From positions 1 through 27,237 of the IMG/VR virus record IMGVR_UViG_3300027902_000244: a DNA stretch of 27,237 nt; one strand, 5' to 3'. The DNA comes from a virus. Below, one piece after another: positions 9,932 through 15,635 of this stretch. Each line of letters begins with the position of its first letter. The first letter of the stretch is position 1. A program made the position numbers and the translations under genes. The notes beneath the pieces were generated by a model that ran no database searches, was not told the origin of the DNA, and worked only from the letters and a program-made list of their open reading frames with translations.

Positions 9932-9936
9932 TTATT

Positions 9937-9962
9937 TCCCGTATCACTACGAGATATTTATG
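9937..9962 (-). promoter_or_regulatory. Late promoter box plus hairpin before the SufBD-like gene
   Basis: CATAAATA (9955-9962) is followed at once by a 7-bp hairpin (TCTCGTA / TACGGGA, one G-U pair) with a GTGA tetraloop (9937-9954). The SD CGGGA lies in its 3' arm. Confidence 0.5.
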
Positions 9963-9963
9963 G

Positions 9964-10269
9964 TTATAACTCTTCAAATGTAGGAGTTAATGGAAACCCA
10001 TTCGCTCTTGCAAGCAGGATTGTTTCCAGAGTTTTTTCTTCAGCAACTTCATGTGTATATGGTGCTCCAGCAATACCTTGCCCTTGCACATGAATGAGTT
10101 TTGTTACCTCTATTGCCTCTTCAGCAGTCTTATGAAAGATCTGAGTTAAGACCATGATAACAAAATCAAAGGTAGTAGTATTGTCGTTATGAAGCAACAC
10201 CTTATACATCTTAGGGATGGCTACCTTAATAGTCTCATCTATTTTTTCAATAACTTCAATATCTGGCAT
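9964..10269 (-). CDS. clpS: ClpS, N-end rule adaptor protein
   Basis: This 101-aa protein is the ClpS fold along its whole length. VLLHNDNTTTFDFVIMVL (from about residue 24) carries the N-degron pocket residues Asn28-Asp29. KLIHVQGQGIAGAPYTHEVAE holds pocket His60 and the conserved G-x-A turn. Known ClpS binds proteins with Phe, Leu, Trp or Tyr N-termini and hands them to ClpA (or ClpC) for ClpP. No ClpA is visible here, so it probably acts on the host ClpAP. The N-terminal extension, which modulates ClpA, is present but short (about 18 residues). It has its own sigma70-like promoter and lies next to Hsp20. Confidence 0.92.
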   Translation of the reverse strand: MPDIEVIEKIDETIKVAIPKMYKVLLHNDNTTTFDFVIMVLTQIFHKTAEEAIEVTKLIHVQGQGIAGAPYTHEVAEEKTLETILLARANGFPLTPTFEEL

Positions 10270-10339: not shown

Positions 10340-10750
10340 TTACTTGATGGCAATAAGCTTAGGCTTGGCTTCTTCAGGAACATTCTTTACAAACATTACT
10401 GTAAGGATACCATCTTCCATTGTAGCATTATTTACCTCAAAATATTCAGCAATTCGGAAACTCTTAGTAAAAGAGCGTGCTGCGATTCCGCGGTATTGAT
10501 AATCAGAGTCGGAAGTTGTTTCCTTAGCACCACTAATTGTTAATAACCCCTGATGTTCTTCCATACGAATTTCACCCTTCTTGAAGCCTGCTACAGCAAG
10601 TTCGAGGTTGAATTCATTGTCGGAAAGGGTAACAATATTGTGTGGTGGATAATTTGTAGTAGGGACCTGAAAGTCTCTAAATACAGGACCAAAACCAATT
10701 GATAAAGCCTCAAGCTGGTCAAAGAGGCGCTGAAAGTCGTTTCTAGACAT
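10340..10750 (-). CDS. Small heat-shock protein (Hsp20/IbpA family)
   Basis: This 136-aa chaperone has a central alpha-crystallin domain, from NIVTLSDNEFNLELAVAGF (about 38-56) through GLLTISGAKE to GILTVMFVK. It ends in an I-x-I type motif (LIAIK) that links oligomers. The N-terminal arm MSRNDFQRLFDQL resembles IbpA. Known members hold unfolding proteins for refolding by other chaperones; T4-like and cyanophage genomes also carry Hsp20 genes. It is preceded by a late promoter box (10809-10816) and a leader hairpin, with SD GGAG about 8 nt from the ATG. ClpS follows downstream. Confidence 0.93.
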   Translation of the reverse strand: MSRNDFQRLFDQLEALSIGFGPVFRDFQVPTTNYPPHNIVTLSDNEFNLELAVAGFKKGEIRMEEHQGLLTISGAKETTSDSDYQYRGIAARSFTKSFRIAEYFEVNNATMEDGILTVMFVKNVPEEAKPKLIAIK

Positions 10751-10826: not shown

Positions 10827-11753
10827 TTAATGCAAGAAGAAAATGAGCAAAGCTACTACTACCACCGCAAGAACAATAAGTAGGGATTTCGAATTATTTT
10901 GTGGCATGGCCACTGCATCCGGTGTAATAAGAACAGATGGTGGAATTACAAAACTAAACGGTTCTAGAAATTTCTGATCATACAACGAAGAGTCGCCATC
11001 AAGCTCTGGTACCTGAGTATACTTGTTGTCAAGCATAAATTTATCCATTGATGTTATGAGTTCTTTGTACGAAATCGCCGAATTTGCGGCCACTGCTTGC
11101 AAGAGTGATGCTGTGGCAGCACCGCAAGGTTGTCCGTTTATAGTTGTATCCGCTGAGGTTTGGTCTGAATGACATCCTGCAATCAATAGCGCAGTTGCAT
11201 TAACATCCTTTGAAGTGCTCCATGTGGCATGGACTAAATCTTGACTTACAACTCCGGCAGGTGGCGGCAAGAATCTATCACTTTTTGTTTCTACATCAGG
11301 AGTTAAATCTTTTGTTGCTGTATCAAAATGTTGGGTTTGTTCTAGCATTGTTCCACTATGGCAGCAATCTAGAATAACCGTTGTATTCACACCATTAGGA
11401 ACCTTATTAAAAATATCACGCAATGTGGTATCTGTAATAATCTTATCCATCCAGTTTAGATCTATGGGACAAATAATTTCTTCGAATGTAGTTGGTGCAG
11501 ATGCACGTGGCATTTGTGAACCGTGTCCACTATAGTGAAATGCAATTACATCGCCCGGTGTTGTACCAGAAATAAGCCATTGTAGACCAGCAGTGATACC
11601 AGCAGTGGTAGCATCGGCTTCTAATATTTGCTTGACATCTGTAAATCCGCGGCCTGTCAATAAAGCCTTCATATTATTTGAATCATTAATGCAACCATGC
11701 AATTCATGATCTGTACCAACGTAATTAATTCCAACAAGTAGTGCGCGTTTCAT
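10827..11753 (-). CDS. Metacaspase (peptidase C14-like) with C-terminal membrane anchor
   Basis: This 308-aa protein starts directly with the caspase p20 fold: RALLVGINYVG, the helix NDSNNMKALLTGRGF, then the catalytic His77 in HYSGHGS and the catalytic Cys131 in DCCHSG. IICPIDL (about 93-99) is the loop typical of metacaspases, which cut after Arg or Lys. No prodomain and no signal peptide are present. A Pro-rich linker leads to a hydrophobic C-terminus (about 287-306, LLIVLAVVVVALLIFF), so the protease would face the cytoplasm as a tail-anchored protein. It follows an L,D-transpeptidase-like gene and has a late promoter box and an 11-bp palindrome over its start. Phage copies are rare, and the substrate is unknown. 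Confidence 0.93.
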   Translation of the reverse strand: MKRALLVGINYVGTDHELHGCINDSNNMKALLTGRGFTDVKQILEADATTAGITAGLQWLISGTTPGDVIAFHYSGHGSQMPRASAPTTFEEIICPIDLNWMDKIITDTTLRDIFNKVPNGVNTTVILDCCHSGTMLEQTQHFDTATKDLTPDVETKSDRFLPPPAGVVSQDLVHATWSTSKDVNATALLIAGCHSDQTSADTTINGQPCGAATASLLQAVAANSAISYKELITSMDKFMLDNKYTQVPELDGDSSLYDQKFLEPFSFVIPPSVLITPDAVAMPQNNSKSLLIVLAVVVVALLIFFLH

Positions 11754-11782
11754 ATGTAATCCTCCGGGATTACATATTTATC
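11752..11782 (-). promoter_or_regulatory. Late promoter box and 11-bp palindrome at the metacaspase start
   Basis: GATAAATA (11775-11782) overlaps the stop codon of the upstream gene. A perfect 11-bp inverted repeat with a 4-nt loop (11752-11777) runs from the promoter box into the ATG. The SD GGAGG lies across its loop and stem. Confidence 0.6.
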
Positions 11783-12152
11783 TAATAATTAATGTTTCCT
11801 TTGTACAGCAGTCTACCAATTTATTGTAGACTTCTGGTTCAACGTTGATACATCCAGAACTAATGAAATGGTCCTTGATATCTAAACTTTTCAACCGATC
11901 CAACCTCTTCTGTTCAGGTTTTAATAACCATACTCGATGAATGGCATATAACATATCTTTATTTTCATGAAACTGCAATATGTCTCCGCCATATCCTCGA
12001 GCATTTGTTCTAACGTGTTTTAATGTATATTCCCCAACAGGTGTAGGTATATTTTTACCTAAAAGCACCGGATGACACTCCTCGGTACCATTATTGGTAA
12101 AGCAGATCGTCGCAAGTGCTATGGTGACTAAAATTGACATATTTTTACTCAT
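11778..12152 (-). CDS. Secreted L,D-transpeptidase-like (YkuD family) protein
   Basis: This 124-aa protein begins with a hydrophobic signal-like segment (MSKNMSILVTIALATICF). TPVGEYTLKHV (about 37-47) matches the TP-x-G-x-(F/Y) motif of L,D-transpeptidases. His72 (AIHRVW) and Cys101 in SSGCINV match the catalytic His and the S-x-G-C-(I/V) signature. Known family members form 3-3 crosslinks in peptidoglycan, attach lipoproteins or release D-amino acids. The domain is compact. I start at 12152 because the residues behind it form the signal peptide; an in-frame ATG at 12170 lies in a hairpin loop. No strong SD is visible. It is the last gene of a run of secreted proteins and precedes the metacaspase. 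Confidence 0.8.
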   Translation of the reverse strand: MSKNMSILVTIALATICFTNNGTEECHPVLLGKNIPTPVGEYTLKHVRTNARGYGGDILQFHENKDMLYAIHRVWLLKPEQKRLDRLKSLDIKDHFISSGCINVEPEVYNKLVDCCTKETLIIR

Positions 12153-12154
12153 TA

Positions 12155-12180
12155 AGAAGCCGGGTATCATCCCGGCTTCT
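12155..12180 (-). other. Intercistronic 10-bp hairpin
   Basis: A perfect stem AGAAGCCGGG / CCCGGCTTCT with a 6-nt loop lies between the 139-aa gene and the L,D-transpeptidase gene. The T run after it is poor, so it may be a partial terminator or an mRNA-stabilising element. Confidence 0.55.
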
Positions 12181-12197
12181 AGGTTGATTGCACGATA

Positions 12198-12617
12198 TTA
12201 CTCGCCAATCTTCTTTGTTACCAACGGAAGCTCTTTAGGAACTTCTTTAACAATAACAACCGGTACTTCCTTAATTACCGTTACAACAACAGGCTTCGGA
12301 ACTTCTCTGACAACCGGACGGATCATCAGATATTCACCACGGCCCAACTCAGGTAACCAGTTATAACCCTTGCATTGAAGACCTGTTGCAGTCTTAACAC
12401 ATTCCACATCAATTACTCTTGGAAAGAGCGTTGCTGCGGTTGGGTAACCCGGCATGTATTGTGGGGCATGATAGATATCATTACTCCACTTTGTAGCATT
12501 TTCAACACCTTGTGTTCCGGGAGTACCAGAACCAAGTTCTTGACGGCCTACGCTCACCTGAGCTATCGCCGAACCTGTAAGCACCAATAGTGCCAAGGTT
12601 GAGATTACTTTCTTCAT
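12198..12617 (-). CDS. Secreted hypothetical protein with Val/Pro/Lys repeat tail, 139 aa
   Basis: A Sec signal peptide (MKKVISTLALLVLTGSAIA, cleavage before Q20) is followed by a short domain with two cysteines (VECVKTATGLQC), likely a disulphide in the periplasm. The C-terminal 45 residues carry an imperfect repeat of the type V-P-x-(P/V)-V-V-x-V-(I/V)-K-E (about 100-135), as in extended, TonB-like linkers. It is the third of three consecutive secreted genes. The SD AAAGGAG lies 8 nt before the ATG in a small hairpin loop. I do not recognise a family. Confidence 0.8.
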   Translation of the reverse strand: MKKVISTLALLVLTGSAIAQVSVGRQELGSGTPGTQGVENATKWSNDIYHAPQYMPGYPTAATLFPRVIDVECVKTATGLQCKGYNWLPELGRGEYLMIRPVVREVPKPVVVTVIKEVPVVIVKEVPKELPLVTKKIGE

Positions 12618-12641: not shown

Positions 12642-13418
12642 TTACTTAGCGGCTACTTGTGCGTCGAGTCCTAGACGTGCGCGAACAACCGGATCGGTAC
12701 CAGTATAGTCACTTGTCGATGATGTCTGAACATTGGTAGCAGGTTGTGCAGCAGCGGCCTTGGCCTTGTTGTCACGTTCAGTTTGCGGGCAGACAAAACC
12801 AGTCAGCTCAAGAGCTTCCTTGTTAGCCTTATCGTTACACATCAGTGCCAATGCAGCAGCCTTCATACCCATGTTCCACATTTCACGACTGTTCTTTAAC
12901 ATCTTGCAGTTTTCGTCAACCCAGCTTGTACCGAAACCAATACCAATACCAGGAACGTTAGCCGAACCCGATGTTGAACCCATGCAAGTATCGTTAGACG
13001 ACACTAAGTTAGGACCAAGTACGGCCGGTGTGTTCTTGATAGTGACGGTAGTAGCGGCCACATCACGCATAGCTTGTGCTGTAATAGCAGCGGCCTGGAC
13101 GGTTGAATCGGCAAGTGCCTTGGTACTTGCAGTAGTATCGGTACAATTTACCAAACAACCGATATTGTTGGTATTGGTACCGCTGGATGTTACACCACTA
13201 ACTGCACCACCAGTCGCCGAGCCACCAGTTGCAGTTGTTCCGGAGACAGAAGCACCGGAAGTCGAGCTAGAATTGCCCGACTTATTAACAGCAGCACCAG
13301 CCACGGAAGTGGATGATGTAATAGCGGTAGACGAGGAACCGGAGACAGCAGTGGTGTCATCAGCAAATGCGCTGAAACCAGCTGCGCACATTGCGATAGC
13401 GAGAATTACTTTCTTCAT
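12642..13418 (-). CDS. Secreted Ser/Thr/Ala/Gly-rich protein, 258 aa
   Basis: A signal peptide (MKKVILAIAMCAAGFSAFA) is followed by about 100 residues of Ser/Thr/Gly/Ala low complexity. A defined domain follows (about 135-215), with SNDTCMGSTSG, GIGFGTSWVDENCKMLKNS and ALALMCNDKANKEAL. Its four cysteines suggest disulphides. I recall similar secreted domains in several phages, all uncharacterised. The last part is Ala/Lys/Gln-rich. SD AAAGGAAA precedes the ATG. It sits between two other secreted genes and may act in the periplasm or outer surface of the infected cell. Confidence 0.8.
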   Translation of the reverse strand: MKKVILAIAMCAAGFSAFADDTTAVSGSSSTAITSSTSVAGAAVNKSGNSSSTSGASVSGTTATGGSATGGAVSGVTSSGTNTNNIGCLVNCTDTTASTKALADSTVQAAAITAQAMRDVAATTVTIKNTPAVLGPNLVSSNDTCMGSTSGSANVPGIGIGFGTSWVDENCKMLKNSREMWNMGMKAAALALMCNDKANKEALELTGFVCPQTERDNKAKAAAAQPATNVQTSSTSDYTGTDPVVRARLGLDAQVAAK

Positions 13419-14143: not shown

Positions 14144-14404
14144 TCAATATTTCTTATCTTTATGCCACAATCCGGTCTCAATCATTTCTTCAACCGTTCT
14201 TTCCCAACGCTTACGAGCTTGCTTTTTTAGACGCTGTCTTAATACAGCTGGCTTCTCATACGCCATTCTGTCCTTAACTTCTTTCAAGATACCAGAATCT
14301 TGGACCTTCTTAGACCATGTACGCAATGCACGACCAAAATCGTCGCCCCTAACTTCCACGGTCAGCCCTCGATGTTTTCTGCCATCTTTATATCTATTTG
14401 TCAT
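14144..14404 (-). CDS. rpsU: 30S ribosomal protein bS21 homologue
   Basis: This 86-aa basic protein carries the bS21 core from about residue 15 to 70: TVEVRGDDFGRALRTWSKKV, GILKEVKDRM and YEKPAVLRQR, aligning with the host pattern of paired helices and YEKP. Known bS21 sits on the 30S platform near the anti-SD of 16S rRNA and helps mRNA binding. Phage-encoded bS21 is described in large phages and is thought to bias ribosomes toward phage messages. I start at the ATG inside the last codons of clpX (11-nt overlap); longer open extensions upstream lack similarity. It is the last gene of the operon before a terminator. Confidence 0.88.
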   Translation of the reverse strand: MTNRYKDGRKHRGLTVEVRGDDFGRALRTWSKKVQDSGILKEVKDRMAYEKPAVLRQRLKKQARKRWERTVEEMIETGLWHKDKKY

Positions 14405-15635
14405 TGTTTGCTCGTTTCTTTGCCTTATGAACATGTTTAATTTTACCATTCTCGTCAACAAGGATTTTATTGACGCCTTCCTTTGCAAGTCTTGGCAGAA
14501 TATATTGTGTGGCCTGGAGATCTCTTTCCATAATCGAACGCAACCCTCTTGCACCGACTTTTTGCTTCAAACAATCCTCTGCAACATTCTGTAGGTATTT
14601 ATCATCGAAGTCAAGAGTAACGCCTTCAAACTTAAATAGGGCTTTAAATTGATCAACAATACTATTTTTTGGTTCTTTGAGGATTCTAATCATCATGTCT
14701 GGAGTTAGATCATCAAAAACAACAGTAATTGGACAACGTCCAACAAACTCTGGAATGAGACCATATTTAATGAAGTCATCAGGTAATGCTGTCTTGGCAA
14801 CCATAGAGAATGCTTTCTTTGTATTTAATACAGCACCAATACCTATACTGGTCTTGGATCTATTCTTCCTAATAATCTCATCAAGTCCTACAAATGCACC
14901 GCTACATATAAACAATACATCTTTAGTGTCAAAATCAATGGTATCACCATATTCATCATCAAGTTTTAATATGGTACCTTCGATAAGTTTTAGTAATGCC
15001 TGCTGTACACCTTCACCAGATACATCTCTGCTGACTGTGGCAGATTCGCTCCTGCGACTCTTCTTATCAACCTCGTCAATAAAAATAATTCCGTGTTGTG
15101 CCTTTTCCAAATCATCTTCTGCATGTAATAATAGACGCTTAACTAGATTTTCTACATCCTCTCCAACATATCCTGCTTCGGTTAATGTAGTAGCATCAGC
15201 AATTACATATGGAAGGTCATATAACTTGGCAATAGTCTTAACAGTGAGTGTTTTGCCACATCCACTCTCCCCTATCATTAACAAATTAGATTTTTCAATC
15301 TCTGTTTTTGACTTACTATGCATTCGTTTAAAGTGATTATATACCGCAACAGATATTGCAATCTTAGCATCATCCTGGCCTATAATATATTCATCAAGAC
15401 TTGCTTTAATTTGCTCAGGAGTAGGGATTTTCTCCCTTCTTTTCTTGATAGATTTTTCTGGAGCTTCTGTATGAAGAATTTCATGAGTAACATCTACACA
15501 TTCATTACAGATATATAAAATCTTACCATTGAATTCTGGACCTTCGATCATCTGTTCAACCTGGTGGCGGCCTTTATTACAGAATGAACAATTGATAATT
15601 TTCTTTACGTTGCCATCGTCTTCTATTTCATTCAT
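14394..15635 (-). CDS. clpX: ClpX, ATP-dependent unfoldase
   Basis: This 413-aa AAA+ protein is full length. The N-terminal zinc domain has Cys16, Cys19, Cys43 and Cys46. Walker A is GESGCGKT (122-129), the pore loop GYVG is at 155-158, Walker B is IIFIDEVD (183-190), the Arg finger is Arg300 in GLIPEFVGR, and sensor 2 is GARGLR. Known ClpX unfolds tagged proteins for ClpP. The loop that docks ClpP reads I264-G265-I266 where E. coli ClpX has I-G-F, so the ClpP contact may be weakened or tuned. It lies 1 nt after a membrane protein and overlaps bS21. No phage clpP is visible, so it would use host ClpP or act alone as an unfoldase. Confidence 0.95.
   Translation of the reverse strand: MNEIEDDGNVKKIINCSFCNKGRHQVEQMIEGPEFNGKILYICNECVDVTHEILHTEAPEKSIKKRREKIPTPEQIKASLDEYIIGQDDAKIAISVAVYNHFKRMHSKSKTEIEKSNLLMIGESGCGKTLTVKTIAKLYDLPYVIADATTLTEAGYVGEDVENLVKRLLLHAEDDLEKAQHGIIFIDEVDKKSRRSESATVSRDVSGEGVQQALLKLIEGTILKLDDEYGDTIDFDTKDVLFICSGAFVGLDEIIRKNRSKTSIGIGAVLNTKKAFSMVAKTALPDDFIKYGLIPEFVGRCPITVVFDDLTPDMMIRILKEPKNSIVDQFKALFKFEGVTLDFDDKYLQNVAEDCLKQKVGARGLRSIMERDLQATQYILPRLAKEGVNKILVDENGKIKHVHKAKKRANNDK

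Follow-up and report, generated by a model that had tools for sequence, protein, structure and literature searches.

Gene content of the metacaspase locus

The window, by which we mean the whole stretch of DNA analysed, is an IMG/VR virus record of 27,237 bases. On its minus strand, an open reading frame at 10827..11753 encodes from an ATG start a protein of 308 aa that is near certain to be a metacaspase, consisting of a p20 region with His77 and Cys131, a short linker, a p10 region, a spacer and a predicted C-terminal transmembrane helix. Directly upstream on the same strand lies the gene for an exported YkuD-family L,D-transpeptidase-like protein (11778..12170), identified by its matches to Pfam YkuD (1.6e-05) and phrog_38499 (1.8e-37) and by synteny, and the same cassette continues with genes for two exported proteins of unknown function (12198-12617 and 12642-13418, minus strand), whose N-terminal signal-peptide-like segments were recognized by eye. 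Downstream, again on the minus strand, are the genes for Hsp20 (10340-10750) and ClpS (9964-10269), which belong to a conserved core. The window also encodes RNA and DNA ligases, a SufB/D-like protein, ribosomal protein S21, a ClpX-like ATPase, QueD, FolE, ThyA (assigned by inspection), a SleB-type endolysin, NadV and an NMNAT-Nudix protein. At 14144-14554 the phage S21 gene overlaps the gene for the ClpX-like ATPase, and two large proteins encoded at 739-5927 (1141 and 587 aa) are conserved across the phage group without a Pfam or PHROG match.

Fold, active site and domain architecture

The frame at 10827..11753 matched Pfam Peptidase_C14 at 2.5e-31 (109.6 bits; cut-off 21.4) over residues 1-251 of the scanned stretch, and its best solved relatives by sequence were Arabidopsis metacaspase 4, yeast and Candida metacaspase 1, T. 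brucei MCA2 and Arabidopsis metacaspase 9. The initial annotation had called the protein a metacaspase with an intact catalytic dyad and had proposed profile searches, Foldseek and structure prediction as a check of the caspase fold; these were run, and both the profile match and the predicted structure agree with that reading. An AlphaFold2 model computed from an input of 35 sequences reached a pLDDT of 86.1 and a pTM of 0.82, with the C-terminal helix at residues 288-307 set apart. With this model, Foldseek returned AtMC9 at E 7.9e-21 and VIA aligned AtMC9 with a Z of 30.6 over 258 residues; the metacaspase structures matched by these programs were MC9, MC4, Yca1 and MCA2, followed by MALT1, legumain and caspases.

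Both dyad motifs of metacaspases, HYSGHG and DxCHSG, are present in the 308-aa protein. The catalytic His77 (codon 11523..11525, minus strand) lies within HYSGHGS and the catalytic Cys131 (codon 11361..11363, minus strand) within LDCCHSG, and each occupies an invariant column of the 35-sequence alignment. Ser75 and Asp129 are likewise invariant (35/35), as are Ser200 and Asp202 of p10, and Asp24 is retained wherever its alignment column exists. In TbMCA2, residues D95, S156 and D211 make up the acidic S1 pocket that sets Arg/Lys specificity. The phage protein has a full set of acidic-pocket residues (D24, S75, D129, S200 and D202), which point to an enzyme directed at Arg and Lys. The corresponding S1 pocket of AtMC4 consists of Ser84, Asp137, Ser350 and Asp352 (PMC7206013). 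At the p20/p10 boundary, position R160 is Arg or Lys in 35/35 sequences and is a candidate self-processing or gating site, comparable to Lys225 of AtMC4.

The architecture departs from that of the recognized classes. No type I prodomain was found, the first core beta-strand of the AlphaFold2 model starting at residue 2; no type II long linker (about 160-180 aa) was found, there being ~50 residues from the Cys loop to the p10 strand at 188-192; and the p20-only orthocaspase/metacaspase-like class was not matched, given that a p10 region exists and aligns with the p10 of MC4, Yca1 and MCA2. By its predicted architecture, the phage metacaspase is thus neither type I nor type II nor a p20-only orthocaspase.

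A putative C-terminal tail anchor

Residues 288-307 (10833..10892, minus strand) form a hydrophobic helix of 20 residues with one residue behind it, and the AlphaFold2 block (pLDDT about 90), hydropathy and conservation in relatives all mark it as a putative transmembrane tail anchor. The Kyte-Doolittle mean over the last 19 residues of the window metacaspase is 3.05, and C-terminal hydropathy exceeds 2.5 in 8/9 independent phage relatives of the clade, L006 being weaker at 1.83. In the close group, the hydrophobic helix stands at the C-terminus or at most one residue from the end, except in L006, where six residues follow the segment; the spacers of these metacaspases vary in sequence while the hydrophobicity of the tail is kept. 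These features support the membrane anchor that had been read at the C-terminus. By sequence and model, the protein has the features of a tail-anchored protein, namely a single C-terminal transmembrane segment, few trailing residues, no signal peptide and an N-terminus that is itself a core strand. Because the anchor is C-terminal and there is no signal peptide, the metacaspase would be positioned at the inner membrane, facing the cytoplasm. No transmembrane segment was present in the nearest bacterial homologues, and the sole case among 38 bacterial loci was a distant cyanobacterial protein of 1295 aa.

Metacaspases of unrelated phages have amphipathic helices in place of a tail anchor, located at the N-terminus in L018:7854-8783 and L026:7803-8810 and at the C-terminus in L022:7998-8912; the last of these, which falls outside the tailed clade, is encoded two genes downstream of a GH25 endolysin. 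Given these amphipathic ends, phage metacaspases may have become membrane-associated on more than one occasion.

Late promoter motif and a hairpin over the ribosome site

A T4/cyanophage-type late promoter motif, GATAAATA, lies at 11775..11782 (minus strand), 29 nt before the metacaspase ATG, where it overlaps the stop codon of the upstream YkuD gene. The late motif NATAAATA occurs nine times in the window, and seven of the nine copies precede a correctly oriented gene start by no more than 110 nt, as compared with 0.6 expected and a maximum of 3 in 300 simulations. This enrichment, together with the position of GATAAATA, supports the late-type promoter that the initial annotation had assigned to the gene. 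A hairpin with a 9 bp stem (11754..11775, minus strand) begins with its 5' arm at the last base of GATAAATA and ends with its 3' arm abutting the start codon, such that the Shine-Dalgarno sequence GGAGG (11761-11765) sits in the loop and 3' arm. The stem covaries in 7 phages: 61/63 cells are paired, both sides have changed at 6/9 positions, and among 5040 re-pairings of the arms only the true one itself pairs as well as the true pairing (1/5040). The shuffle z of the hairpin is -5.3 in the window, about -4 to -6 in 6/7 phages and -1.8 in L011.

T4 late transcripts begin about five bases past the late motif, and a late mRNA would therefore lack most of the 5' arm that a read-through mRNA carries. 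On read-through mRNA arriving from upstream, the hairpin would cover the metacaspase ribosome site and prevent translation, while initiation at GATAAATA would give transcripts that begin within the 5' arm, escape the hairpin and are translated, by analogy with lysozyme gene e of T4. In gene e the late promoter is located within the 5' side of a stem masking the ribosome site, a structure that lowers early lysozyme synthesis about 100-fold and guards against premature lysis, and the same hairpin layout is found at soc, gene 49 and homing endonucleases of T4 (PMC3014915). The metacaspase locus resembles gene e in that, as judged by sequence and covariation, the stem sequestering the ribosome site takes its 5' arm from the late promoter region; it differs in that a metacaspase rather than an endolysin would be gated and in the motif itself (GATAAATA as opposed to TATAAATA in T4). 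With the gene e layout at the metacaspase, its expression should be late only.

A second gene e-like switch was observed at the SufB/D-like gene, in the window (9932-9962, minus strand) and at about 20 related loci, where a CATAAATA-type late motif is followed by a hairpin at the ribosome site whose arms carry compensatory changes (TCTCGTA..TACGAGA, TCCTGTA..TACAGGA and TCCCGTA..TACGGGA). Since the SufB/D-like gene is gated likewise across the group, the switch appears to be a habit of these phages rather than specific to the metacaspase, and since the layout is shared with this gene and with the T4 genes listed above, gating is no proof of a lethal product.

Phage origin, relatives and selection

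A first scan yielded three contigs with proteins 63-64% identical to the window metacaspase, and an alignment-based scan yielded 31 loci, about a dozen of them close; the tailed metacaspase was found on eleven IMG/VR phage contigs. In the maximum-likelihood tree, the tailed proteins formed one clade (99/98) with the untailed phage protein L014 as its sister, and phage metacaspases were scattered at several places among bacterial ones, so that phages probably acquired metacaspase genes more than once. The 385-kb contig with L011 encodes a T4-type major capsid protein (gp23, 5.7e-78) and a T4-type S77 prohead protease (1.7e-25), and the phage group is therefore T4-like; these genes and the source of the window in a virus record confirm that the metacaspase is carried by a phage, as first proposed. 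Larger records with the metacaspase had one C14 gene each (8/8). A contaminating bacterial gene was considered and rejected, given that the phage synteny is common to nine IMG/VR contigs and that the tailed proteins form a single clade.

The core dN/dS of the metacaspase was 0.08-0.17 among unsaturated pairs, which indicates purifying selection. With dN/dS at about 0.1 and an invariant dyad, the possibility of a pseudogene or inactive homologue was rejected. Among the metacaspase relatives only L011 has a frameshift near the start, where an extra G (L011:7975-8010, GTCGGGTATTAAC) breaks the frame, either through a sequencing or assembly error or as a real frameshift. Another phage metacaspase frame, L027:4801-6795, is 664 aa long and contains an apparent intein directly behind the catalytic His motif (HFSGHG, C...VHN, SQVPDQ).

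Accessory status and alternative functions

A scan with the SufB/D-like protein yielded 29 loci, and presence of the metacaspase was scored where the interval from S21/YkuD to Hsp20/ClpS was intact. Within intact intervals the metacaspase was present in the window, L001, L002, L006, L007, L008, L009 and L011 and absent from L091, L097, L100, L101, L102, L105, L106, L107, L109, L110 and L111, some of which are near-copies. ClpS and the SufB/D-like gene were present regardless of the metacaspase, as was Hsp20 except in L011. Because these core genes stay while the metacaspase is missing in about half of the group, we regard it as accessory cargo, which sits in a variable envelope-enzyme cassette apart from the Hsp20-ClpS core. 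In L102, L105 and L111 a polysaccharide deacetylase and a GH16 enzyme are encoded between YkuD and Hsp20, with a GT2 glycosyltransferase nearby in L105 and L111 as well, and L006 has no exported cassette upstream of its metacaspase.

The GH16 enzymes of these three members (L102:981-1838, L105:5337-6092 and L111:5170-6099) have no signal peptide but possess an amphipathic N-terminal helix and a Pro-rich spacer, and they fill the slot used by the metacaspase in other members. Homing-endonuclease-like genes lie between Hsp20 and ClpS at L091:4112-4756, L100:3525-4145 (with a NUMOD3 motif), L090:505-1143 and L110:2850-3485. The exported protein upstream of YkuD at L001:135-1310 has long collagen-like Gly-X-Y repeats (GDKGDKGNNG), which occur in this protein in some members and not in the window copy.

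The distribution of these genes bears on a proteolytic cascade in which cuts at Arg/Lys would create N-degron N-termini for recognition by the phage ClpS, encoded two genes downstream, and delivery to host ClpAP. The order metacaspase-Hsp20-ClpS in most metacaspase-bearing members of the group and the ClpX-like ATPase close by would suit such a pathway, but the link to ClpS and ClpX is weakened because ClpS and Hsp20 remain where the metacaspase is missing (L011, with a metacaspase and no Hsp20, being the exception noted above). Furthermore, metacaspase phages outside the group mostly have no ClpS in their records, and the metacaspase has a late-promoter/hairpin unit of its own; we therefore consider the cascade improbable. 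A part in virion morphogenesis, in which a head or tail protein would be processed late and at the membrane, the site where assembly of T4-type heads begins, would accord with a T4-like group and with the late expression suggested by the promoter motif, yet the 385-kb relative has its own S77 prohead protease and about half of the close relatives dispense with the metacaspase while keeping the same surrounding genes, which makes this role very unlikely.

Patchily distributed phage peptidases have been proposed to target host proteins (PMC7824862), and the accessory presence and repeated acquisition of the metacaspase by phages are as expected for arms-race genes. The protease could accordingly be imagined to counter host defence by cleaving a membrane defence effector or a caspase-linked immune protein. 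Such genes are normally early, and this role fits less well with a late promoter motif and an RNA gate against early translation; moreover, the gene sits in an envelope-enzyme cassette and its PADLOC match was to a generic caspase model only, so that counter-defence seems unlikely. As regards known caspase-based defence systems, the NCBIfam EACC1 caspase scored far under its cut-off and no partner genes were recognized in the neighbourhood. Phage membrane proteins often serve exclusion, and bacterial caspases are defence effectors; an accessory, membrane-held late protease might thus act when a second phage injects, in superinfection exclusion or inter-phage competition. For such a function, to which we assign little probability, neither a sensor domain nor a partner gene was seen.

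Proposed role of the metacaspase

From the evidence above we infer the membrane insertion, topology, Arg/Lys specificity, late timing, target and role of the metacaspase as follows. Late in infection, the tail would insert into the host inner membrane with the protease in the cytoplasm, where it would cut host and/or phage proteins at the membrane, and this cleavage would help to dismantle or remodel the envelope around lysis. We put at roughly one half the probability of this reading, in which an Arg/Lys protease made late and tethered to the inner membrane acts there around lysis. Late gating and the envelope-enzyme cassette favour such a membrane effector over counter-defence and head maturation. 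The metacaspase would belong to a set of envelope-active enzymes that can replace one another at the locus, and we advance only tentatively the broader idea that a T4-like lineage uses it as a late, RNA-gated, membrane-tethered envelope executioner, exchangeable with envelope-degrading enzymes. Because it is missing in about half of the group, the metacaspase is not required for lysis, and no holin-metacaspase linkage was found. Of the three roles originally suggested, host killing and processing of a membrane protein are compatible with late RNA-gated expression and an envelope cassette, whereas the countering of a caspase-based defence fits these features worse. The hairpin, the shared synteny, the accessory nature of the gene and the retention of the tail throughout the lineage go beyond the initial annotation.

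Comparison with known metacaspases

Only one related protein was found in INPHARED (LR745208, 32% identity, no tail), and caspases are missing from a survey of jumbo-phage functions that does list peptidases and ClpS (PMC7824862); the class therefore looks overlooked. No description of a phage metacaspase was found in the open-licence literature searched, in which viral metacaspases were described only from giant eukaryotic viruses, and Foldseek against the viral structure library found no phage caspase in that library, the named strong matches being the metacaspases of Fadolivirus, Medusavirus and Clandestinovirus. In plants, fungi and protozoa, metacaspases are investigated as proteases of cell death and of the response to damage; in bacteria, caspase-like proteases are investigated as effectors of defence. 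A conserved, membrane-anchored phage metacaspase under a lysozyme-type switch would reverse this usual relation, in that the virus brings the executioner, and it raises the question whether phages employ controlled proteolysis inside the cell, at the membrane, for lysis or host takedown. The phage protein is also attractive as a compact one-chain metacaspase that brings its own putative membrane tether.

With AtMC9 and AtMC4 (type II) and with Yca1 and TbMCA2 (type I), the phage protein shares the caspase fold, a single chain of p20 and p10, the His/Cys dyad and an acidic S1 pocket, but it has neither an N-terminal prodomain nor a long linker and it ends in a tail anchor. The calcium ligands D173, D189, D190 and D220 of TbMCA2 align with E91, T107, D108 and E138 of the phage protein, of which three of four are acidic, T107 opposite D189 being the exception; the window protein does not have the acidic L5 loop of AtMC4, which is partly present in relatives. 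In damaged plant cells AtMC4 is activated by calcium upon membrane breach (PMC9950082). A similar calcium trigger on membrane breach is possible for the phage metacaspase, but we do not claim it because the canonical ligands are kept only in part. Small bacterial metacaspase-like proteins of 260-290 aa, from Chlorobiaceae, Bacteroidota, Deltaproteobacteria and others, are 30-37% identical to the phage protein and share the order p20 - RYLPPP - p10, but they stop shortly past p10 without a transmembrane segment. The giant-virus (NCLDV) metacaspases named above are virus-encoded too, but they belong to unrelated viruses with eukaryotic hosts. Bacterial and giant-virus metacaspases are thus already known, and what appears to be new here is a tail-anchored, putatively late-gated phage metacaspase, in which the late motif GATAAATA is coupled to a covarying hairpin over the metacaspase ribosome site.
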